Shown: positions 1,980 to 24,363 of the stretch, piece after piece | Position numbering within the stretch: position 1 is the first letter of the stretch | Layout: each line of letters begins with the position of its first letter | Source: a virus | Strand: one strand, 5' to 3' | IMG/VR virus record: IMGVR_UViG_3300026094_000035 | Span: 1-25,280 of that record | Length of the DNA: 25,280 bases | The notes under the pieces: generated by a model | What the model saw: the letters and a program-made list of their open reading frames with translations, nothing else | Told to the model about the DNA's origin: nothing | Databases searched by the model: none | Made by a program: the position numbers and the translations under genes

Positions 1980-2206
1980 TTTCTACCCCTAAATTTTGGA
2001 GGAAGTGCGTCAGTTAGGTAGGGTCGGGTGAACCACAGTTCAAACCACTCTGGATCACCGGGGCGGAGGCCCATTTCACGTTCTATTTCACGCTTTTCTG
2101 TGCCTGTTTTGCTAATGTTAGAACCCTCAGGGGCAGCACCAGCAGGAGTATTTGCATATACTCCACTATTAACACCGGCTAACCGTTTTAATTCTTCTAA
2201 GTCCAT
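1976..2206 (-). CDS. Small conserved marine-phage protein with ELKRLAG motif
   Basis: A 76-aa protein with two recognisable parts. The N terminus, MDLEELKRLAGV, carries a short (E/D)(L/V)KRLAG motif that also ends the 958-aa protein encoded at 5534. The C-terminal half, from MGLRPGDPEWFELWF to FRGR, resembles a small family common in marine T4-like phages. The middle is Gly/Ala/Ser-rich and probably flexible. There is no Shine-Dalgarno; TTAAATA sits 7 nt before the ATG. The stop overlaps the PcfJ-like gene by ATGA, which suggests coupled translation. Function is unknown; a virion-associated or morphogenesis role is inferred only from position. Confidence 0.7.
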   Translation of the reverse strand: MDLEELKRLAGVNSGVYANTPAGAAPEGSNISKTGTEKREIEREMGLRPGDPEWFELWFTRPYLTDALPPKFRGRK

Positions 2207-2212
2207 AATACA

Positions 2213-2854
2213 TTATTTAACATCAACAGGAAAACGACGCTCACATACATATATGAGGCTTTTCTCAATCCACTTTTCTTCTTTTTCGTTTTCTACTTCA
2301 CAAGAGTAAGTGAATTTACTAACATCAAATCCACTTCTTACCAATAGGCTGGCCCACATAGCATCACCAAGAATGCTATAATGATTTTTATTTTGTTCAT
2401 GTTGGCGGTCTGAATCTGGTGCTGGAACCTCAATATACATTTTTGCATTGGGTTTTAGAACACGATTATATTCTAACAGCGTGATATAGGGGAACGGACT
2501 ATGTTCTATGGCGTGACGGCAAAATATAAAATCAACACTTTCATCTAAATCATCTAAAAAACTGATATCAGATTTCTTGACACTGTGTCCTTTTTGTTCG
2601 CATAACTTAATATCTTCGGTGCTTAAAGTTACACCTACTGTGTTGATATATCCTCTGGATTTGGTTTCATCTAAAAAGAAACCCGGGCCACATCCTAAGT
2701 CTAAAATATAAGAATCAAGTGACAATTCAAGTGGATCAAAGAATTGTTTTACAACATCTTCTGTTATTTGCTTGTGAAAGGGACTTTCACCTTCGTCATA
2801 AACTTGGCTAAGAATGTGTTCGTAATAGAACCGTAATTTTACTAAATCTTTCAT
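2213..2854 (-). CDS. Class I SAM-dependent methyltransferase
   Basis: 213 aa, with the Rossmann-type methyltransferase signature. Motif I, ILDLGCGPGFF, is at residues 50-60. An acidic region at about 96-105 precedes DFIFCRHAIEHSPF (108-121), and NRVLKPNAKMYIEVP follows at 130-144. This layout is that of the methyltransf_11/23-type small-molecule or sugar methyltransferases. The substrate cannot be read from sequence. It sits between a 446-aa structural protein and the 76-aa protein, within the virion-gene run, and starts 3 nt after the upstream stop with only a weak GAG-type ribosome site. Candidate roles are modification of a glycan or a virion component; neither is shown. DNA methylation is less likely because no target-recognition region or DPPY/NPPY motif is present. 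Confidence 0.85.
   Translation of the reverse strand: MKDLVKLRFYYEHILSQVYDEGESPFHKQITEDVVKQFFDPLELSLDSYILDLGCGPGFFLDETKSRGYINTVGVTLSTEDIKLCEQKGHSVKKSDISFLDDLDESVDFIFCRHAIEHSPFPYITLLEYNRVLKPNAKMYIEVPAPDSDRQHEQNKNHYSILGDAMWASLLVRSGFDVSKFTYSCEVENEKEEKWIEKSLIYVCERRFPVDVK
2214..2220 (-). promoter_or_regulatory. Possible late -10 element adjacent to start codon
   Basis: TTAAATA on the minus strand, 7 nt before the ATG at 2206. It overlaps the methyltransferase stop codon (GTT AAA TAA), so it may be coincidental. It resembles the other TAAATA elements placed right beside SD-less start codons in this window. Confidence 0.25.
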
Positions 2855-2857
2855 ACT

Positions 2858-4198
2858 CTATCTTATTTCAACCCAAGACAGAGAAGCAAAAACATCTTTG
2901 TTTGATGACACTGTAGCAGCAAGGATCGTGAATGTCTGCGGTGTCGTTCCCATGTTGTTACGCCCAAGCTGAAGGATAGTTTCTTTGAGGAATTTTTGAA
3001 TTTCTCCCTGAGTATTTGGCGATATGTATCCGGTCTGAAGTATATCTCCTCCAGTAAAATCCGTGGCCGAGTAGTCAAACTCTGCAAAACTTGCCGGGGA
3101 AGAGTTCTGCCAACTTGCTCCAGTCAGAGTAGTGTCTCGGATTACTCGGTAGAACAGACCAGTATTATCCAGAGTCGCGGCCTGAAACTCCAAGGGTATA
3201 ACGACACCATTTAGTCTATCGGACCTAAGGCGAATTGATAGTACCGGCCTCAACTCATCAGCACTACCGGTTGTAATTCCGTCAAACGGAGTTGCCACGT
3301 TCTGCTCACGACCAAGCGGCCCAACCTCGCCTTCTGATGATACCGAACTTGATCCCTGTAGGATCTGGTGGGTTCCCGCAACGCCTTCCACATTTGTCAA
3401 TTCAAACCTCAAAGGTCTATAGGGCGAATTAGCCCAAGGTATCTCGTCGTTATTACCAGCCACGAATCTATGAAGCGGAAGTGCATTGTTGTCCAGTATG
3501 ATTTTGAATTCAACTACGCCAGCACCAAACCATTCATACTCAATGGTAAACATTTGAATCTTGTCTTCTTGGAATGATTCCAGAGATGGCCCAGTTCCGT
3601 CTAACCGATCCACATTCCACTCTGCTCTAGGAACACGCTGTTCTTCAATTCCTGTAGGAGTATCTTTGCGAAGCACGACATAATAGTCATCCACGCCTTT
3701 CTCAAAATACACACCGTTTGTTTCATCAAAGATGCCAAAGCGTTTTCTTACGCCAGTCTCAAAAGGATCCAACCGTAATGCAAAAATCGCTTCGTTGGCC
3801 CTGCCCGGCACATACTGAATCACATTTCTAGTCTGGCGTATAATTTCATCCCCTGCATCACCACCCACTTCCAGTACCACACCACCTTCATATTCGTTAA
3901 AAGTTGATGATGCTGTGCCTGTGACTGCTTCGTCCCAAATCTGTTCATCTTTGGTGTATTGAAAAGCGTTGAAAAAAATTTGCTCGTTTGTGGAAACTTT
4001 GCGACGATTGCGTGAAGTATGCTGAACCGTGTCATCATCTACTCTTACCGCAACATTGCCTTTATAGTTTGTAAAAACACTTTCATCTCTTAGACTGCGA
4101 ACATATACATTTCCCGTGTCACTATTAAGTGCAAGTGCTTGTGTAAGATTACGAAGATACCATGGTTTTACATCTTCTGGAGGCGGCACTGATGTCAT
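2858..4198 (-). CDS. Virion structural protein (marine T4-like family)
   Basis: A 446-aa, beta-rich, mildly acidic protein. It resembles large structural proteins repeatedly annotated in cyanophages. The recognisable blocks are RFGIFDETNGVYFE (153-166), WNVDRLDGTGPS (194-205) and EYEWFGAGVVEFKI (220-233), followed by a region around 240-275 ending in PLRFELTN. The core looks like a jelly-roll or lectin-like sandwich, as in capsid decoration or fibre-associated proteins, but that is inference from composition. The ATG at 4198 overlaps the upstream gene by ATGA, and an AAAGGA ribosome site lies about 9 nt before it. It is the largest clear structural gene in the left part of the window and is followed directly by the methyltransferase. 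Confidence 0.65.
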   Translation of the reverse strand: MTSVPPPEDVKPWYLRNLTQALALNSDTGNVYVRSLRDESVFTNYKGNVAVRVDDDTVQHTSRNRRKVSTNEQIFFNAFQYTKDEQIWDEAVTGTASSTFNEYEGGVVLEVGGDAGDEIIRQTRNVIQYVPGRANEAIFALRLDPFETGVRKRFGIFDETNGVYFEKGVDDYYVVLRKDTPTGIEEQRVPRAEWNVDRLDGTGPSLESFQEDKIQMFTIEYEWFGAGVVEFKIILDNNALPLHRFVAGNNDEIPWANSPYRPLRFELTNVEGVAGTHQILQGSSSVSSEGEVGPLGREQNVATPFDGITTGSADELRPVLSIRLRSDRLNGVVIPLEFQAATLDNTGLFYRVIRDTTLTGASWQNSSPASFAEFDYSATDFTGGDILQTGYISPNTQGEIQKFLKETILQLGRNNMGTTPQTFTILAATVSSNKDVFASLSWVEIR

Positions 4199-4566
4199 CG
4201 TTTATATCCTTTAAACGGTTTTACAGGACTTTCGCTGTTTATTGCATCGGATTCATGGCTGGGACCGGGTGCATCATCTTCGTATTCTAATCCAATCTTT
4301 TTAAACGCGGCTTTTGCCATTTCGTGTTCTTCGGGAGTGTATGTAAGAACAAACCCATCAGCACCAGTCCAACTGGCTGGATCAACATCATGCTCATTGT
4401 CAGGATGACCAGCCATTGCTAATGTCGCACGGTAAAGGTCATAGTAACCATTATTACGGATGGTTCCTACAGTAGAATCTTTAAAATTACGTGGGGCTTC
4501 GCCACGCTTTAGAGTAGCACGGCCATAGTTAAACCCACTTTCTTTTAAAAAATCACGGGCTCTCAA
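4195..4566 (-). CDS. Small phage protein with capsid-targeting-like N terminus (TTG start)
   Basis: 123 aa, function unknown. The start is a TTG directly abutting the upstream stop (TAA then TTG). The next in-frame ATG would remove about 50 residues, including the N-terminal MRARDFLKES. That segment resembles the short start-plus-(hydrophobic)-x-Glu/Ser peptides of T4 internal head proteins, a reason to keep the TTG. The rest contains GTIRNNGYYDLYRATLAMAG near the middle and a PEEHEMAKAAFKKIGLEYED helix, then a Ser/Pro-rich tail. The gene overlaps the 446-aa gene by ATGA. If the N terminus is a targeting peptide, this would be a small packaged protein; that is inference. Confidence 0.65.
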   Translation of the reverse strand: MRARDFLKESGFNYGRATLKRGEAPRNFKDSTVGTIRNNGYYDLYRATLAMAGHPDNEHDVDPASWTGADGFVLTYTPEEHEMAKAAFKKIGLEYEDDAPGPSHESDAINSESPVKPFKGYKR

Positions 4567-4830: not shown

Positions 4831-5532
4831 TTATTTCAGTAATTCACTGACCGGAGTGCTGGACCAAAATTTACAACTCCAATACCCAGCGGTATCTCTA
4901 TCATTTTTAGAACTTTTTTGGTCGCACTTATGTCGTGCTCTGAAACTTCTTCTTGCATCTGGGTCATCTCTTTTGATTTCCATTTCTTTGGAACCAAAAT
5001 TAACTTTTTTAACATTGCCAGTATCTGGGTCAGTGACATATACTTTATATTTTTTAACATCGCCACGCATTGGCTGATTTAATTCAACCTCTTTTCCTTG
5101 ATACTCTGCTTCGTCAAGTTGGCAGCCACAGGCAGAAAAGAAATTTTCAGCAACGCTGTCTGTGCCAAGTGTATAACTTGATTCATCGTGTCCTACAACT
5201 GGCATCTCTATAACAATTTCTTCATTGACAATCATTTCAAGAACATCACCTGTTACTGGTGCTGATTGTTGTCTTTCACTTTCACCCAAGTAATCTGTAA
5301 AACTTTTTGATTCTTTTTGAATCTTGCTTTTGGATTTAGGTGTGGTGTTCTCTGTTAATACTGATTTGTCAGCCGAATCAAGTTTAGATAGCATATCTCT
5401 GATATCATCATTGGTGTTACTTTCTGAAACATTTTCTTTAGATGCAAATGTGGTTGATTCCTTTAGAGTAGGTTTCTCTTTAGAATCAAACTTAGATAGT
5501 AGGTTTCTGATATCATCATTTATATTATTCAT
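4831..5532 (-). CDS. Phage protein with N-terminal repeats and C-terminal RSFRARH/YWSC domain
   Basis: A 233-aa protein with the start placed at ATG 5532. A TTG three codons upstream at 5541 is less likely because the AGGA site is too close to it. Residues 5-28 and 41-64 are an imperfect tandem repeat (NDDIRNLLSKFDS versus NDDIRDMLSKLDS, each followed by Lys/Ser linkers ending in LKES or LTEN). SFTDYLGES at 77-85 resembles a T4 internal-protein targeting or cleavage peptide. The C-terminal domain, about 175-223, carries KKVNFG, RRSFRARHKC and GYWSCKFW; Cys135, Cys137, Cys203 and Cys220 could bind metal. I recognise this last domain from many marine myoviruses but know no function. It follows the 958-aa gene by one base. 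Confidence 0.7.
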   Translation of the reverse strand: MNNINDDIRNLLSKFDSKEKPTLKESTTFASKENVSESNTNDDIRDMLSKLDSADKSVLTENTTPKSKSKIQKESKSFTDYLGESERQQSAPVTGDVLEMIVNEEIVIEMPVVGHDESSYTLGTDSVAENFFSACGCQLDEAEYQGKEVELNQPMRGDVKKYKVYVTDPDTGNVKKVNFGSKEMEIKRDDPDARRSFRARHKCDQKSSKNDRDTAGYWSCKFWSSTPVSELLK

Positions 5533-5533
5533 T

Positions 5534-8410
5534 TTAAACAAGTCCTGCTAATCGCTTAACTTCGTCTGTTTCATTAAAATTACGCATTCTGTCCATATCA
5601 TCAACATCACCACGTGTTTGAATTGGATCAGGAACATCAGACATCATGTCATTAATCTTGTCATAATCAACTTCTTCACTTGATCTAAATGCCTTCTCGG
5701 CTTCTTCTCTTTCTTCTTCGCTTCTCATTTGGTCAAGAATGACATCACGAACTTTTTCTCTATCAACAGAATCTCCCTCAAAATCATCTCCAACTTCGTT
5801 TTTAACAAGTTCAGTTGCTTTTTTGACTTCTTCTTCTGTTGCACCAATGTCATAGATGCCATTAGGGCCATAGAAATCTAAGACATAAGAATAAAATTCA
5901 TCCATAGTGCCTACAGCAGTATCTTCTTCTTCCTTCATAGAACGGAATGCTTTGTCACTGGCTTTTTTGATGGACGCCAGATCTTTTTTGTCTACAGACC
6001 CACCAAAAGAGTGCCCCATGACAAAATCGGACAACTGCTTTGCCTTGATGGTCTTTCTACCTTTTAACGCAGTAACCACTGCAACAGGGTCAAGACCCCC
6101 ATCTTTTAAGGCTGCTTTGACAACTGAGGGCTTCATCGAAATAGATTTAGATATAATTTCGACGGCTTCCTCTTTATCGGCGTTTGCTTTCTCGTCCAGA
6201 AGCTTGGAGAACTCTTCCTTAACCACATCCATTGGATTGTCGCCATCTTCAGCCTTGTCATAAGAATTTTTCTCACGGTTAAGACCGCCAGAAACAACAT
6301 CAAGCATATATTCCATATCCTGATATTTTTCTTCTGGGCTATTGCTGTAATCACTATCTTCTTCCATTGGCATATCATGTGCTTGAGTATGCATAAGATC
6401 TGGGTTATCTGTTGGTTCTTGGAACTGTACCTCACCATAACCGGGACTTGAGAAAAGTCCTGCATTGGATAGCAATCCAGCCAACTCGTCTGCCTCTTGT
6501 TCTGATGCGGTTACTGAAATGCTTCTGCTTTCTGGTTGTGTTGGATCAACGCTTACATTAATATCCATTGCTTCATTGAGTTCTTCATTTTGTGTAAGAA
6601 GAGAATCCTGCAGATCAGCAAACACAGAATCAACTTCGTCTCTTATAATTGTGTCTTTACCGCGTTTGTCTTTTTCAATGCTGGGTATTGCGTTGTAACC
6701 ATCCTTTTTCAACATATCTGCATATTTTTTAAGGGCCCTTTTATCTGAACCACCAAAGTTTTTACTCGCTCTTTCGAGTTTTTTAGCCGCATCTACTGGA
6801 GTTTTTACTTTGGCTTCATTGAGTTGTGAGCGGAATTTCTTTTCAAGTTCGCTTACTGTCTTGGATTCCGCCACCGAGGACTTCATTAAGAATGCACGTT
6901 TTGCTAAACGACGGTCGCCTTCCTCAAGTTCGCTGCCTTGCTTAACCCAATCAGCGTAGTTGTTTGCAGCATCTGTTGCTTCTTTTTCTGACTTGTATGG
7001 TCCTTCTACCTCGCCATCCACACTCTTATAAAACCAAGCAGAATCAAATTCTGAATCTTTGCTGTCTGCTTCTTCTTCTCCAAATATACTTCTCTTTTTA
7101 GTATCGCCAACTGGGGCAGACACTGCAGCAACACTGCCAGCAGAAGTGGTTTCATCAAGTTGTGCCCGGGCAATAGCAAGATCATCATAGCCATAAGTGT
7201 TCCGTAAAGCATTTCTTGCTTCTTCTGGTGTCATACCTGCACTCTCTGCAACTGTACTATCTTTCATAGCAGCCAAAAGGGTTTCTTCTTCTGTAAGACT
7301 GCCCTCGTTGACTGGCACACAATTTGGAACTTCTTCGCCGTCTTGCATTTTTGTGCCATATTGCTCATAGCCATCCCAGCAAGGATCGTCTTCGTCTTTT
7401 TCTGTTATCTCGTCTTCATTCGTGTTATTGTTAGATTGCTGGAAAGCAAAATCAGCAAACTTTTGAAACATTTCTTTTTTACCAATATTATCTTCTATCT
7501 TGGCTTTGTTTTTGTCGTTTACTGCGTTGTAAAGACTTACTATCGCATTTGCAGTTTGCATATCAACTTCTAGAGTCTCGCCATTATCAAATGTAATACG
7601 AGACATTTGTCTGTCATCTACGATATTACGAAGACGGTCAATAATGCCTTCTGTTAATTTGGTTTCATTCATTGTTCTATCCTTGTGTTTGGCTTCTGCA
7701 ACAGAATCCTCGTTTTCAATTTGTTTGATTTCAACATCACCTTCGTTGTCATCCATCCACTTTTCAGCAGACTTCATATTACGGAATGTTTTGGTAAATG
7801 ATTTACTATTCATTCCTTTGACGCCCTTGACAACAACTTTCTTTTCTGGATCAAGGTCTGACTGACGACTGGTTGCTTCATTCATTGTTCTATCTTCTAC
7901 TGGTCCCAAATACTTATTTGATAACTTTCTTATCATTCTTGTGTCACCAGCATCTATATATAGATCAAGTTTGTCTAACTCTCGCTCGGCATACTCGTCA
8001 CCTTGCTGAGCAGCATCTTGCATGGCCTGTCCCAGTGGTGTGTTATCCATACTAGTTGCTTCTAAACCAGCATAAGTTCCCAAGCCCAGCATAGTAGCCA
8101 ATGCTGCTTTCTTAAGCATATTTTCATTTAGTTCATCGTCTTCTAATAGACGCTGTTCAATATCACCAATAATAGTATTAAGAGAACTTTCTTCCATGAA
8201 ATCATCATCATCTGGAATTACTTCAATATCATCTTCACTAGCAAGTTCCATACCGCTTGGTGTTTTAACTTTGATTTTGCCATTTTCTTCACCATAGTAC
8301 ATACCAGTTTTATTCTGTGACTTGATATGAACGGCATCTCCTAACCCCAACTCATCAGATGACATAGTGTTTTCTTTAATTGTTTTAGAATTCTTAGATG
8401 TCTTTCTCAT
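5534..8410 (-). CDS. 958-aa modular acidic protein, candidate prohead polyprotein
   Basis: A mosaic of small modules joined by acidic linkers. In order: a KOW/SH3-like strand patch at about 20-66; a block shared with the 837-aa protein at 255-325; a PCWDGYEQYGTKM...PNCVPVNEG Cys module at 343-370; an EEARNALRNTYGYDD block at 397-410 (also paralogous to the 837-aa protein); an AWFYKSVDGEVEGPY block at 458-472; a helical block at 530-605; an ISVTASEQEADELAGLLSNAG block at 631-651; VVSGGLNREKNSYDKAEDGD at 705-724; a YSYVLDFYGPNGIYDIGATE domain at 840-859; and a C-terminal DEVKRLAGLV. Motifs of the type hydrophobic-x-Glu/(Ala, Ser, Gly, Thr) lie between modules, at 176, 237, 247, 252, 367, 387, 418, 513, 530 and 611. 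T4 prohead protease cleaves after such glutamates, so in vivo processing is plausible. No enzyme domain is recognised. Confidence 0.75.
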   Translation of the reverse strand: MRKTSKNSKTIKENTMSSDELGLGDAVHIKSQNKTGMYYGEENGKIKVKTPSGMELASEDDIEVIPDDDDFMEESSLNTIIGDIEQRLLEDDELNENMLKKAALATMLGLGTYAGLEATSMDNTPLGQAMQDAAQQGDEYAERELDKLDLYIDAGDTRMIRKLSNKYLGPVEDRTMNEATSRQSDLDPEKKVVVKGVKGMNSKSFTKTFRNMKSAEKWMDDNEGDVEIKQIENEDSVAEAKHKDRTMNETKLTEGIIDRLRNIVDDRQMSRITFDNGETLEVDMQTANAIVSLYNAVNDKNKAKIEDNIGKKEMFQKFADFAFQQSNNNTNEDEITEKDEDDPCWDGYEQYGTKMQDGEEVPNCVPVNEGSLTEEETLLAAMKDSTVAESAGMTPEEARNALRNTYGYDDLAIARAQLDETTSAGSVAAVSAPVGDTKKRSIFGEEEADSKDSEFDSAWFYKSVDGEVEGPYKSEKEATDAANNYADWVKQGSELEEGDRRLAKRAFLMKSSVAESKTVSELEKKFRSQLNEAKVKTPVDAAKKLERASKNFGGSDKRALKKYADMLKKDGYNAIPSIEKDKRGKDTIIRDEVDSVFADLQDSLLTQNEELNEAMDINVSVDPTQPESRSISVTASEQEADELAGLLSNAGLFSSPGYGEVQFQEPTDNPDLMHTQAHDMPMEEDSDYSNSPEEKYQDMEYMLDVVSGGLNREKNSYDKAEDGDNPMDVVKEEFSKLLDEKANADKEEAVEIISKSISMKPSVVKAALKDGGLDPVAVVTALKGRKTIKAKQLSDFVMGHSFGGSVDKKDLASIKKASDKAFRSMKEEEDTAVGTMDEFYSYVLDFYGPNGIYDIGATEEEVKKATELVKNEVGDDFEGDSVDREKVRDVILDQMRSEEEREEAEKAFRSSEEVDYDKINDMMSDVPDPIQTRGDVDDMDRMRNFNETDEVKRLAGLV
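7301..7399 (-). other. PNCVP-type Cys module inside the 958-aa protein
   Basis: Residues 338-370 contain PCWDGYEQYGTKM followed by VPNCVPVNEG. This short two-cysteine signature recurs in many marine phage proteins; its role is unknown. It ends in VNE/G, a potential prohead-protease site. Confidence 0.6.
7436..7648 (-). repeat. Shared module, copy in the 958-aa protein
   Basis: Residues 255-325 align with residues 15-90 of the neighbouring 837-aa protein. Shared elements are IDRLR-IVD, FDNGE, VDM-TA-AIV-L-NAVND, NKAKIED-IGK and ADFAF. A preceding LTE/G marks its left border. Confidence 0.9.
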
Positions 8411-8422
8411 AATATTTGCTCT

Positions 8423-10936
8423 TTATAGATAATCCGAAGATATTATGCTTGATTCTTCAAACTTATCATGTAATTTTTTTAATTCTCTATGAAATTCTTT
8501 AAGAAATTTTTTCTCATTATCACTTAAGTATGCAGCTATAGTTCCAGACGAATCCCGGAACAGATCCTGTAATGCCACAACTGAATCATTTACTGGCAAG
8601 AAAATAGCATCACTGAGTTTTTTCTCAAACTTTTCTCTATCTTGAAGAAGATCTTGCTTGATCTCTTCAGGATCTTTGTCGCCCTCTGTTGCTTTAAAAA
8701 GTGGTGAGGCTTGTGTTCTTTTGACTTGCTTGTCAACATCCCAATCACTTTTCTTGTTTTCATTTAGTTTGGGTGGATATTTTTTTGATTTTTTTCTATT
8801 TTCAGCCATATAATCCTCTTCACCACCAGCAAACATAGTACCTGTGCTCATTGGTGGTTGGCTTGCAGGGGTGCTCATCTCGGTGTTTGTTGTCATATCA
8901 GGAACGTCATCTTCTTCGGCACGACGGGTCCCTTCTATGTAAGCATAAATGGTTTCTATTGCACGATGTACTTTTGCTATTTTATTCTGATACCACTCAG
9001 GAATTGGTGTTCCGGCTGAAATACACTTAAGAACATCTTCTGCTGCGTATTTCATAAAGGAAAGTTGTGTTCTTGCCATACCACTTGCAGCTTCAGGTCC
9101 ATAATCAGAACCAACATAGCCCTCTGAGATTGGACCGCACATTTGACGCTTGAGACGGCTTCCTTCCATATAACTATGAATGCCTTGCATATCTTGGTGA
9201 GCAGAACTTATTTTATTCTGCAACCAGTCTGGCATATGGTACCCCGCTCTCATGGCTTCTTTGATTTCACTAATAGCATATACCAAATAGTGAATTTGTG
9301 TCTCTGCCATCTCTGATCCAGCCTGTGGTCCATAATCATCAGGATCTTGCATTGCCTTGTCCATCATTGGGGGCTGGTTCATCATGTCCATATCCATATC
9401 TTGCTCATCCAATGGCGATGCTATGTCAGTTTGAATAGCATTTCTACGAGCATGAAGATACTCATCTGTAGAATCTACTTCTCCATCATTATTAATATCT
9501 TTGTCTTTACGGCGTTTAAATGGCATACGAGCTTGCTTTGCATCTACTGGATCTAAATCATCATCAAGTTTTTCAGCAGTACTCTTATCCATTTTTACAG
9601 GATAGGTTTTTCCATCAAATTCAAATTCTTTTTTACCTGCTTTAGCAGCTTCAGCAGCGGCTTGATTGAATGCATTTTCATCAAGACTATCTTCATCTAT
9701 TAGACCCAAATCCTTTGAATATAATTTGTCAATCATTTTTTTGGCTTGGGCTTTTGTCAAACCATCTTTAACCATATCTTGACGACTTCCTGTTTCACCA
9801 ACAGTCCATATTGTATATCTGCCCTCGCTATTTTTTTCTGCTTTATAATCTTTAGCTTCATCAACTTTTTCAGGTAATCCTGCGTGCTTGGTGCCAGCAA
9901 AATCTTCTAATTCTTTCTTTGTCATAGAATCATACATTTCTTTTGAAGCACCTTGTAATTCAGAAACCGGTGTTTCACCTCTTTTGGCTGCTAATGCAGC
10001 ACCAGCAGCTTGCTGTTGGTCTTTAGAAACAGATTTTTCATTGATTGACTCTTTCTTTTCTTTCTTTGAGATTGCGATGGCTGCTTGTTGTGCTTGACTT
10101 TTACTGTGTTTGCCTTCATTGGCTGTCTTTTTTAATTTCGTTATTTGAGCATCGGTGTAACCAAATTTATTTTTTAACATTTTTTCGGCTTCTTCCTCTG
10201 ATGGCCCACCTAAAAGTGCTTTATCTGGATTTTTGACCGTATCTTTGGCAATTTTTTCTTGGTGCTTGCTGGGAACATCTTTGCCTTCATTGAATTTAAT
10301 ATCAGAAACAGGCATTACTTTTGCTTTTGGTGCTTTGTAGTTTTTGCCCTCGTCACTTTTAAAGAAAACATATCCGTTCTCTTCTTTCATAACAACACCA
10401 GAAATACCAGCACCACCTTTCTTTCCAACACCAGCGTGTACACGAGTTCCCGCTTCAAATTCTTTTTGTTCTAAGATAGGATTATTCTTGGTAAATTTAA
10501 CACTATATGCAGTTTCGCCAATGCCCGGCTTGTTGATAAGGATATATGGCTGGTCTTTGATTGTTATTCTGCTTGATTTTGGCTTAGCACCATATGCACT
10601 TTCTGTCATCTTGACAGTTTCGGTGTCATCATTTATTAACACATCACCACGACCACTTTGTGCATTTTCTTTTAGATTAGAAAAAGCAAAGTCAGCAATT
10701 TTGTAAAACATTTCTTTACTTTTGCCAATAGTATCTTCTATTTTGGCTTTATTTTGGTCATTAACTGCATTATGAAGATTCACAATTGCACTGGCAGTAA
10801 ACATATCCACTGTCATTGATTCGCCATTGTCAAATTGCACACGTCTTGCATCGTTGTTATCAACAATGTAGCGAAGTCTGTCAATAGTATCTTCTTTTAG
10901 TGTTGGCTTTTTTGTTATGAAATCCTGTTTATTCAT
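8423..10936 (-). CDS. 837-aa modular acidic protein, candidate prohead polyprotein
   Basis: A mosaic protein paralogous in parts to its 958-aa neighbour. In order: the shared block at 15-90; a KOW-like patch at 160-208; an EEAEKMLKNKFGYTDAQI block at 248-265; an SKSQAQQAAIAISKKEK block at 278-294; a DUF3008-like block at 303-360 (QQQAAGAALAAKRG, then LQGASKEMYDSM, then HAGLPEKV); AAEAAKAGKKEFEFDGKTYP at 427-446; a dockerin-like calcium loop at 480-491; two tandem helical repeats at 534-594 and 611-671; and a coiled C terminus at 755-830. Candidate gp21-type cleavage motifs include MTE/S 110, FNE/G 215, VDE/A 358 and ISE/G 603. The ATG has a strong AAGGA ribosome site 7 nt upstream. The stop lies 12 nt before the next gene. 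No catalytic motif is seen. Confidence 0.75.
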   Translation of the reverse strand: MNKQDFITKKPTLKEDTIDRLRYIVDNNDARRVQFDNGESMTVDMFTASAIVNLHNAVNDQNKAKIEDTIGKSKEMFYKIADFAFSNLKENAQSGRGDVLINDDTETVKMTESAYGAKPKSSRITIKDQPYILINKPGIGETAYSVKFTKNNPILEQKEFEAGTRVHAGVGKKGGAGISGVVMKEENGYVFFKSDEGKNYKAPKAKVMPVSDIKFNEGKDVPSKHQEKIAKDTVKNPDKALLGGPSEEEAEKMLKNKFGYTDAQITKLKKTANEGKHSKSQAQQAAIAISKKEKKESINEKSVSKDQQQAAGAALAAKRGETPVSELQGASKEMYDSMTKKELEDFAGTKHAGLPEKVDEAKDYKAEKNSEGRYTIWTVGETGSRQDMVKDGLTKAQAKKMIDKLYSKDLGLIDEDSLDENAFNQAAAEAAKAGKKEFEFDGKTYPVKMDKSTAEKLDDDLDPVDAKQARMPFKRRKDKDINNDGEVDSTDEYLHARRNAIQTDIASPLDEQDMDMDMMNQPPMMDKAMQDPDDYGPQAGSEMAETQIHYLVYAISEIKEAMRAGYHMPDWLQNKISSAHQDMQGIHSYMEGSRLKRQMCGPISEGYVGSDYGPEAASGMARTQLSFMKYAAEDVLKCISAGTPIPEWYQNKIAKVHRAIETIYAYIEGTRRAEEDDVPDMTTNTEMSTPASQPPMSTGTMFAGGEEDYMAENRKKSKKYPPKLNENKKSDWDVDKQVKRTQASPLFKATEGDKDPEEIKQDLLQDREKFEKKLSDAIFLPVNDSVVALQDLFRDSSGTIAAYLSDNEKKFLKEFHRELKKLHDKFEESSIISSDYL
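8924..9337 (-). repeat. Two tandem helical repeats in the 837-aa protein
   Basis: Residues 534-594 (9155-9337) and 611-671 (8924-9106) align along their length: DYGP-A-S-MA-TQ, then A-Y or AAE helices, then P-W-QNKI, H--I--I and Y-EG-R. The link between them is GPISEGYVGS, which carries an ISE/G candidate cleavage site. The family resembles helical modules common in marine myovirus proteins. Confidence 0.85.
9857..10030 (-). other. DUF3008-like block inside the 837-aa protein
   Basis: Residues 303-360 resemble a small bacterial family that I recall as DUF3008, normally a free-standing protein of about 60-70 residues. Shared features are a QQ-AAGAALAAKRG start, a GASK-MY-SM centre and an ELE-FA-TKH-GLPEK end. 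The family name is from memory; the block boundary ends at VDE/A. Confidence 0.55.
10667..10894 (-). repeat. Shared module, copy in the 837-aa protein
   Basis: Residues 15-90 are the counterpart of residues 255-325 of the 958-aa protein. Here the module stands almost at the N terminus, right after the peptide PTLKEDT. Confidence 0.9.
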
Positions 10937-10945
10937 TCTTTGTCC

Positions 10946-11512
10946 TTATCGTGCAAAGCTCTTTGGTTCCGGTCTCTTATTAGTTCCGGGTATAGCACTA
11001 TCGGTGCCTTGCTCAAGATCGTTAGTAGTTTGTGCTGGGTCAGTTTTACCACCTGCAATTTCAAATTTGGCATCACTTGCTGAGTTTTTTATAACTTCGT
11101 CTGTGGTATCATATTCTGCATCTGGTGGCGTTGGATAATCCTTTTCTAAAACTGGACTTTCTTCACGCTTTTCAAATTCATCAGATACAGTATCGTCATA
11201 ATCAGGGGTCATCATACGGAAATGATTCGGATTGCCGCCCATTTCACGCCACATTTCAGTAACCTCCTGTGAAGAAGCAGGGTAAGAAAATTCAACATCA
11301 ATGATATGAACTTCTTCATTATTCAGTTCAGGAAACCCTGCTGGTGATTTCATAACAGGAGTTTTCTTGGGTTCGGACATTTTAACTAAGTCATAGCGTT
11401 CAAGACGCTTTTCTAACTCATCGACTTTGTCCTTGTCTAACTCACCCGCAATCTTAATGCGATACTGAAAAGTTTGTTTGCTTTCAGCAAGATAATCTAC
11501 AAATGTTTTCAT
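10946..11512 (-). CDS. Probable capsid-targeted internal protein
   Basis: 188 aa. The first eleven residues, MKTFVDYLAES, closely match the T4 internal-protein capsid-targeting sequence that I recall as MKTYQEFIAE followed by cleavage after Glu. Behind it is a compact alpha/beta domain at about 15-100 (FQYRIKIAGEL, a DELEKRLERYD helix, VHIIDVEFSYP, then EVTEMWREMGGNPNHFR), recognisable in many marine T4-like phages but of unknown function. The last 80 residues are acidic and low-complexity, with VLE/K near 129 as a possible second cleavage site. The gene has its own late-type promoter (AATAAATA, 11531-11538) and an AGGA ribosome site, and begins the run into the two large modular proteins. 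Packaging in the head is inferred from the N terminus. Confidence 0.75.
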   Translation of the reverse strand: MKTFVDYLAESKQTFQYRIKIAGELDKDKVDELEKRLERYDLVKMSEPKKTPVMKSPAGFPELNNEEVHIIDVEFSYPASSQEVTEMWREMGGNPNHFRMMTPDYDDTVSDEFEKREESPVLEKDYPTPPDAEYDTTDEVIKNSASDAKFEIAGGKTDPAQTTNDLEQGTDSAIPGTNKRPEPKSFAR

Positions 11513-23190: not shown

Positions 23191-24363
23191 TTACTTGCCA
23201 ATAGTCTTTGACTCAAACACTCGGGTATGAGTATCTGAACACCGAACAAACGTAGCACACTTTGGTAGATTTTTTAACTTTTCTGCACCTGCATAGGTAC
23301 AAGCCGATCTTACGCCGCCAAGAATTTCCTGTACCACAGGCTGCAGGTCGCCTTTATAATCTACAAGAACTGTTCTACCCTCAGAAGAACGGTAATCTTT
23401 TAATCCACCAAAATGTTTATCATTGGCAGTTTTTGAACTCATACCATAAAACTCAACAAACTTTCGTTCTTCAACCTTATGTCCAGTCCATGTCCATTCA
23501 GTTTGCCCATCTGCTAGAGTTCGCCGTTTTGCATCTAGTTCGCCAGTTTCAAAGAGACGAGTAATGACTTCGCCGCCGCCTTGATCCGTACCTGCAAGCA
23601 TCCCACCCAGCATTACAAAATCAGCACCAGCAGCGAAGGCTTTGGCAACATCGCCTGACGAAGTACAACCCCCGTCAGCGATAATATGTCCACCTAAGCC
23701 GTGTGCAGCGTCGGCACACTCAATCACAGCAGATAATTGTGGATAACCTACGCCTGTGGCAAGTCTCGTCGTGCATGCGGATCCCTGACCAATCCCGATC
23801 TTGACTATATCAACACCATTAAGAATAAGTTCTTCGGTCATTTCACCAGTGACTACATTACCCGCAATAATGACAACGTGTGGGAATTGATTTCTAAAGT
23901 CTTTGACAAAATCAACAAAACGTTCGGAATATCCGTTTGCCACGTCAATGCACACATACTTAATATCTGTCTGCAGTCTGTCATACACTGCTTCAAAATG
24001 TATAAGGTCTTGTTCAGAAATGCCAATAGATACTGCTACATAATCAGTGAGGTAGTCTGGACCGTCATCAAAAAAATCAATCAATGCTTCTTCTGAATAC
24101 GTTTTAACAAGACACGTAAACAATCCCAGACTGGCTAATTTTTCAGCAACAGCCATTGTTCCAACCCCGTCCATATTAGATGCCATAACAGGAATGCCAT
24201 GGTAATGATGGTCTTCCCAACTATGATGATCAAATGCTGGCTCATAATTTATAAATGCAAACCTGCGTTCAAGATCAACTTCTTTACGCGAACTCAGGGT
24301 AGACCGCTTGGGTCGGATCAAAACATCTGAATAATCTAATTTAAGATCATTTTCTAATCGCAT
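23191..24363 (-). CDS. guaC: GMP reductase
   Basis: 390 aa, longer than the approximately 347 of E. coli GuaC. Key blocks: LDYSDVLIRPKRSTL (9-23), PVMASNMDGVGT (58-69), the catalytic loop KIGIGQGSACTTR (188-200) with Cys197, TGVGYPQLSAV (203-213), ADGGCTSSGDVAKAFAAGAD (229-248), FVMLGGMLAG (249-258), FYGMSS near 304 and YRSSEGRTV after it. There is no CBS pair, and the FYGMSS and SAVIECADAAHGL pattern is that of GMP reductase rather than IMP dehydrogenase. The enzyme makes IMP from GMP with NADPH. An insertion at about 268-297 explains the extra length. The ATG has AAGGA 8 nt upstream. It is an unusual auxiliary gene beside neck genes. Confidence 0.9.
   Translation of the reverse strand: MRLENDLKLDYSDVLIRPKRSTLSSRKEVDLERRFAFINYEPAFDHHSWEDHHYHGIPVMASNMDGVGTMAVAEKLASLGLFTCLVKTYSEEALIDFFDDGPDYLTDYVAVSIGISEQDLIHFEAVYDRLQTDIKYVCIDVANGYSERFVDFVKDFRNQFPHVVIIAGNVVTGEMTEELILNGVDIVKIGIGQGSACTTRLATGVGYPQLSAVIECADAAHGLGGHIIADGGCTSSGDVAKAFAAGADFVMLGGMLAGTDQGGGEVITRLFETGELDAKRRTLADGQTEWTWTGHKVEERKFVEFYGMSSKTANDKHFGGLKDYRSSEGRTVLVDYKGDLQPVVQEILGGVRSACTYAGAEKLKNLPKCATFVRCSDTHTRVFESKTIGK

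Follow-up and report, generated by a model that had tools for sequence, protein, structure and literature searches.

The prohead protease of bacteriophage T4, gp21, cuts after L/I-x-E, and the T4 internal proteins are targeted to the core by leaders of 10-19 residues, which are later removed, as described in PMC9026906. This study analyzed two giant modular proteins of 958 and 837 amino acids (aa), encoded in a 25,280-nucleotide stretch of viral DNA (IMG/VR record IMGVR_UViG_3300026094_000035), the whole of which is called the window. A first-pass annotation of the window had delimited the same two open reading frames (ORFs; Table 1) and had read both products as prohead-protease polyproteins that are cut into small packaged proteins during head maturation. 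The cutting half of that proposal was found to be well supported, by exactly positioned sites at the edges of three module families, by the lack of such sites in phages negative for the protease (peptidase S77) and in module copies that stand alone, and by sites in gp23. The packaging half is supported indirectly, through virion proteomics of another T4-like phage, and is the weaker of the two.

Several described systems resemble the giants in part. The T4 internal proteins (IPI-III and Alt) have a short leader ending in hydrophobic-x-Glu, of which the giants carry a putative counterpart, and are small, head-bound and variable between relatives (PMC9026906, in part), but each leader serves one protein, whereas the giants hold many units per chain, with sites between the units and the unit order shuffled. 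The T4 core proteins gp22, gp67 and gp68 are cut into several fragments by gp21 (same source), as is proposed for the giants; those fragments are mostly discarded, whereas the giants consist of folded modules that also occur elsewhere as proteins in their own right. In phiKZ, 201phi2-1 and SPN3US, a distant relative of gp21 processes head proteins, namely the inner-body and ejection proteins, after x-x-Glu (PMC9026906 and PMC10052503, in part), although the main outcome there is the loss of N-terminal propeptides, at 13 of 14 sites in SPN3US (PMC10052503). Polyvalent proteins (Iyer and colleagues 2017, PMC5512222, in part) also join many unrelated domains per chain and are thought to be injected, but their suggested processing is by built-in metallopeptidase domains; a Pfam scan of either giant matched no metallopeptidase, ART or methylase domain. 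The arrangement seen here is likely a variant form of the T4 system of internal proteins and gp21. A literature search, mostly without subscription papers, found no paper describing such cargo polyproteins; the polyprotein strategy is better known from RNA viruses.

Hydrophobic-x-Glu at the edges of shared modules

Nine module profiles that did not include the site were built (DUF3008, CW, EF-hand-like, NVSV, IDRLR, MATQ, AIAISKKE, AFNQAA and phrog_7595), of which eight match the two giants and the ninth, phrog_7595, matches their 236-aa neighbour. The 837-aa protein contains IDRLR, AIAISKKE, DUF3008, AFNQAA, EF-hand-like and two MATQ modules, and the 958-aa protein contains IDRLR, CW and NVSV. 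At least two module kinds recur in 31 ORFs of other phages (many being one contig retrieved repeatedly), in differing orders such as AFNQAA-MATQ-DUF3008-NVSV (L006), EF-hand-CW-MATQ (L010), DUF3008-phrog_7595 (L055), DUF3008-CW (L034) and CW-DUF3008 (L136); in L017, AIAISKKE-CW-phrog_7595 lies downstream of a cytidylyltransferase-like domain. No match was found among solved structures for the phrog_7595 and DUF3008 modules.

The first edge test concerned DUF3008, which in bacteria is a complete protein of about 60 aa (59-63 aa) starting with Met-Pro or Met-Lys (80 of 127 relatives kept). The phage copies comprised 44 distinct sequences, 29 of them with at least four upstream residues, which reduced to 22 non-redundant contexts. 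In 21 of these 22, [LIVMF]xE ends exactly at the position of the start methionine, mostly with Lys next, compared with a mean of 0.95 and a maximum of 6 in 20,000 shuffles and with 0 at four neighbouring positions; the single miss has Met-Pro there and is probably a mis-called start. The site was absent from all 42 bacterial copies with enough upstream sequence. In the 837-aa protein (Pfam PF11450 match, E 8.1e-26), the predicted cuts would free residues 301-360, a 60-aa unit of the same length as the bacterial stand-alone protein. A site also stands on the C-terminal side in 29 of 39 phage versus 2 of 80 bacterial copies, but this is weak evidence, as the C terminus of the bacterial proteins falls at that point. 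The literature search found no paper on DUF3008.

For phrog_7595, the strict site was found in 64 of 94 copies with upstream sequence and in 47 of 70 non-redundant contexts (shuffle mean 3.4, maximum 12; 0-6 at 14 upstream offsets). Several stand-alone phrog_7595 proteins begin M-A-x-Y-x-G, and fused ones show E/A-E-Y-x-G at that place (a slash marks the module edge here and below). The site was present in 15 of 16 records with detected S77 and in 0 of 9 complete phages without it (Aegir, CRP-901, CRP-2, CRP-3, CRP-6, HTVC106P, HTVC111P, HTVC026P and MedDCM-OCT-S30-C28); 26 named records, near-duplicates among them, carry the module, and 13 were inspected. Separately, phrog_7595 fusions with Asp at the edge, mostly ELFD/AEYRGR, were noted in L299, L306, L308, L311, L312, L315, L317, L321 and L340; these may have lost cutting or be served by a different protease.

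The DUF6321 module, which occurs only in relatives and not in the two giants, was tested once the rule was already formed, with a profile that leaves out the edge. The strict site stands ahead of D-W-Q in 29 of 37 non-redundant contexts, against a shuffle mean of 1.0 (maximum 6) and 0-1 at neighbouring positions up to four residues away. Two of the contexts without it belong to the S77-negative podoviruses P-SCSP1m and Skadi-5, and HTVC010P, also S77-negative, lacks it as judged by eye and unscored by script, so that the S77-negative total is 0 of 3; S77-positive P-HM2 misses the site by one residue. The match to the start methionine is less exact than for DUF3008 and phrog_7595 because about 7-9 residues precede the aligned part in stand-alone DUF6321 proteins. 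Named records matching DUF6321 number 496, of which six were inspected. Inside the module, AVTEKNPKG was seen in S77-positive phages (L442, L443, L444) and AVTGK, AVTKK and similar forms in S77-negative podoviruses (L079, L361); the former is perhaps an additional cut site.

The protease itself follows a similar division. S77 is encoded in each of the eight complete T4-like records that were examined (Melnitz, C48C1, BUCT-ZZ01, HTVC008M, immuto, S-CREM2, S-8S56 and P-HM2), and none of twelve smaller complete phages with stand-alone module copies has it; no S77 match was found in 25 of 50, 39 of 50 and 5 of 17 searched records, most of them fragments. The residue after Glu follows the module, being Ala or Ser for phrog_7595, Lys for DUF3008 and Asp for DUF6321; therefore, the first-pass annotation was too narrow in making [AGST] part of the motif. 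The free middle residue, the three families with different next residues and the split by protease presence are together hard to explain without cutting.

The gp23 proteins point to the same specificity. Hydrophobic-x-Glu stands just ahead of the conserved shell domain in seven sources (FLGE, FLSE, FLTE, IVSE, MLME, LFE and YLQE), and LLTE does so in gp23 of the Synechococcus phage S-CREM2. The sites fit the specificity of the protease and, from their position and by homology to T4, are probably the cut sites.

Enrichment within the giants, leaders and tails

All tetrapeptides named in the first-pass annotation are present in the two proteins, and the motif that it singled out, [LIVMF]xE[AGST], is enriched over composition shuffles (22 versus 10.8 in both together, p 0.001; 13 versus 6.8, p 0.017, in the 958-aa protein; 9 versus 4.1, p 0.020, in the 837-aa protein). 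The strict T4-type [LI]xE is weakly enriched (26 versus 18.4, p 0.035), as is any [LIVMF]xE (51 versus 40.4, p 0.029), and hydrophobic-[NASTDG]-E-[AGST], a form picked post hoc from the data, reaches 18 versus 4.5 (p 0.00005). Replacing Glu by Asp or Lys in the four-residue form gave no enrichment. Among the 14 other window proteins tested, the 236-aa neighbour is also enriched (4 versus 1.3, p 0.023); none of the remaining 13 reaches p 0.05 for [LIVMF]xE[AGST], and several do so for looser forms. By itself, the enrichment inside the giants is modest. Because of this, and because the tighter form was post hoc and one Lys control was enriched, evidence was sought outside the window.

The annotation had further placed the motif at module borders. 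AlphaFold2 models of the giants, built from alignments of 4 and 10 rows, were poor (mean predicted local distance difference test score, pLDDT, 48.6 and 53.9) and therefore give rough support for domain borders only. In these poor models, 17 of the 22 sites lie at pLDDT below 50, compared with about 69 of 165 for hydrophobic-x-[DKQNR] (Fisher p 0.0025; the control figure was recalculated from rounded fractions). Some of the sites stand inside modules. Comparison of the 837-aa protein with its 863-aa homologue in the relative L002, where unrelated sequence replaces the EF-hand-like middle unit, showed 13 of 15 hydrophobic-small-Glu sites to be conserved, including cases with a changed middle residue. 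The IDRLR module of the 958-aa protein is homologous to the one at the N terminus of the 837-aa protein, which stands after L-K-E there and after L-T-E in two relatives; the NVSV relative in L006 is likewise preceded by L-T-E.

Candidate leaders ending in a site are present in the 958-aa protein (13 residues), the 837-aa protein (15 residues) and the 188-aa neighbour, and short leaders with a site directly before single modules occur elsewhere (MKTYREFVTE/AEYQGR in L338, MFTFKQYILE/AEHQGK in L346 and MKNINE/KSV in L062). In the L350 leader (HYNE) and in L275 (MYNE), the strict motif fails solely because P3 is Tyr or lies too near the start. KRLAGL-like tails end the 958-aa protein, the L021 protein at 2080-3174, a 341-aa acidic ORF at 7278 in L050 and a 634-aa ORF (from 3) in L307. 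The L021 protein is encoded just after the protease and is a putative scaffold protein gp22. Across 2,868 ORFs, KRLAGL-like matches were C-terminal in 4, N-terminal in 1 and internal in 17; the window ORF at 1976-2206, noted alongside these tails, starts MDLEELKRLAGV. The distribution is suggestive of a core-binding or targeting tag.

Proposed mechanism, packaging and competing explanations

In the mechanism proposed here, a short N-terminal leader, and perhaps also the C-terminal KRLAGL tail, would direct each giant as a precursor into the prohead core, where a gp21-type (S77) prohead protease would cut after hydrophobic-x-Glu and free about a dozen small proteins per chain. Hydrophobic-x-Glu would replace the start methionine when a module joins the chain, and because the site stands in its place, the module would nearly regain its native N terminus on cutting. 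Once released, the units would remain alongside the DNA inside the head and be passed into the host at infection, in the manner of the T4 internal proteins. Judged from the comparative sequence evidence, the giants are very probably cut by an S77 protease. We infer a somewhat better than even chance that most units are retained in the mature head, while ejection into the host falls a little short of even; cutting and packaging taken jointly are considered reasonably probable.

The evidence on packaging comes from S-CREM2, whose virion proteome, in Table 3 of PMC10665884, lists gp160 (7 unique peptides), gp137 (4 unique peptides, 4.1% coverage), gp136 and gp154. In gp160 the CW module is flanked by hydrophobic-x-Glu; gp137, encoded between terminase genes, contains a DUF6321 module preceded by M-N-E; and gp136 and gp154 have leader-like N termini. 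Proteins of the modular kind thus occur in S-CREM2 virions, which does not in itself establish cutting. The literature on relatives yielded virion protein lists and no semi-tryptic data on cuts.

Several observations weigh against the polyprotein interpretation. The case for cleavage is drawn from compared sequences rather than from observed cuts, and the shuffle null disregards common descent of the fused copies, which weakens the statistics. The strict site is missing in 23 of 70 phrog_7595 and 8 of 37 DUF6321 contexts; Asp stands at P1 in 9 of 94 phrog_7595 copies and other residues in further ones, and Asp at the cut position of a T4 leader inhibits processing (PMC9026906, in part). The CW module has no constant site position and is also frequent in portal-like proteins of other phages. 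Within the giants, MAET 543 and IKEA 558 lie inside a helix of a repeated module, VGET 379 and FEES 826 also look internal, and the three-residue control hydrophobic-small-Lys is enriched in the 837-aa protein (17 versus 8.9, p 0.0075), which counts against specificity. Leader sites over 72 ORFs of a twin contig are mildly enriched (22 versus 14.6, sd 3.4). The coverage of S-CREM2 gp137 is low. Finally, no S77 match was found in the window, its 65.8-kb twin or L002, all of which are fragments; the contig of the window phage ends too early to include its own protease gene.

The strongest rival is that the giants belong to the prohead core (scaffold), as T4 gp22, gp67 and gp68 do, and are cut by the same protease, with their pieces discarded to make room for DNA. 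In T4, the core proteins are indeed processed to several pieces, most of which do not remain (PMC9026906, in part), and the 958-aa protein is acidic and has a KRLAGL tail resembling that of the L021 protein whose gene follows the protease gene. However, bacteria and S77-negative phages have stand-alone relatives of these conserved modules, which is unexpected for scaffold, and two modules of the vocabulary sit in proteins found in mature S-CREM2 virions (PMC10665884, in part). Neither giant matched a core or scaffold family in Pfam or PHROG at E up to 0.1. This rival is regarded as unlikely.

More improbable still is that hydrophobic-x-Glu merely reflects module fold or linker composition, the giants being uncut structural or ejected polyvalent proteins. 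Such proteins of phages and plasmids join 2-15 domains per chain (PMC5512222, in part), the modules are Glu-rich with some sites in helices, and the Lys control noted above is enriched; against this, stand-alone copies lack the site and start at exactly that position, the middle residue is free while the two flanking it are conserved, and three unrelated families show a sharp peak at a single position. A further explanation, that genuine sites are served by a different protease, whether of host origin or from some other phage gene, is very improbable: the S77 gene of the window phage was not seen and many searched records, mostly fragments, have no match, but S77 is found in every complete T4-like record examined and in none of the twelve smaller phages, and the gp23 sites match.

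If the polyprotein interpretation is true, a sequence rule reads cargo units out of many unannotated large proteins of marine T4-like phages and explains their mosaic make-up, and a set of small candidate host-takeover proteins becomes open to direct testing. DUF3008, which is widespread in bacteria and has no known function, would become a candidate packaged phage protein, and the system would be an unusual use of polyproteins by a tailed phage. More tentatively, and with the odds slightly against it, aquatic T4-like phages may run a general modular cargo line, in which any small protein can be loaded by placing hydrophobic-x-Glu instead of the start methionine within a capsid-targeted polyprotein, units are traded like cassettes, and the whole set is delivered per virion.

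Feature coordinates, neighbouring genes and further observations

Table 1. Coordinates in the window of the giants, their units and adjoining modular proteins.
Feature	Position	Strand	Description
123-aa protein	4195..4566	-	short leader MRARDFLKE ending L-K-E; putative TTG start
236-aa modular protein adjoining giants	4831..5541	-	phrog_7595 module (4834-5109), E 1.1e-13, after L-D-E/AEYQGK
958-aa modular protein	5534..8410	-	leader ending I-K-E, beta stretch, helical stretch, IDRLR module, CW module
958-aa protein, remainder	5534..8410	-	further small units, NVSV module, C-terminal tail EVKRLAGLV
C-terminal tail TDEVKRLAGLV of 958-aa protein	5537..5569	-	preceded by F-N-E
NVSV module of 958-aa protein, residues 614-740	6191..6571	-	preceded by L-N-E
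CW module of 958-aa protein, residues 338-369	7304..7399	-	bounded by I-T-E and V-N-E
IDRLR module of 958-aa protein, residues 255-337	7400..7648	-	preceded by L-T-E
837-aa modular protein	8423..10936	-	15-aa leader ending L-K-E, IDRLR, SH3-like stretch, AIAISKKE motif, DUF3008
837-aa protein, remainder	8423..10936	-	AFNQAA module, EF-hand-like motif, two MATQ modules, C-terminal helices
DUF3008 unit of 837-aa protein, residues 301-360 (60 aa)	9857..10036	-	flanked by I-N-E and V-D-E
188-aa protein	10946..11512	-	10-residue leader MKTFVDYLAE

The 188-aa protein matches phrog_14802, a virion structural protein (E 4.8e-6), and its residues 1-39 match phrog_2667, an internal head protein, weakly (E 0.0088); its predicted leader resembles the capsid-targeting leaders of T4. 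The block around the giants contains a sheath gene, tube genes and a gp4-like head closure gene (phrog_218, E 6e-44), together with a 177-aa protein taken as a putative small terminase by position and look. The tail sheath is similar to sheaths of T4-like and large phages. The 65,824-base twin contig (IMGVR_UViG_3300008963_000002) carries both giants at 100% identity and extends on to a gene reading as large terminase.

CW borders were dropped as a site test because the site position is variable and portal-like proteins carry chance hydrophobic-x-Glu nearby. Among the 80 of 543 CW relatives that were kept, the module (DPCWxGYxxxGxKxxxGxxVPNCVP) is common in portal-like proteins of many other phages (L079-L158), outside any polyprotein.

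The window lacks a 530-aa ORF of L002 (4333-5925) with the look of a homing-type endonuclease, which in that relative is flanked by the sheath and tube genes and read from the other strand. The window gene at 23191-24363 reads by eye as a relative of IMP dehydrogenase or GMP reductase. Adjacent paralogous genes, at 261-1979 in the window (572 aa) and 20643-22190 in L001 (515 aa), have the common N terminus MRFSEFSKFTIRPHLFE and a GHCGN-type domain, and the second paralogue of the pair has repeats of about 25 aa with RWPEAE.

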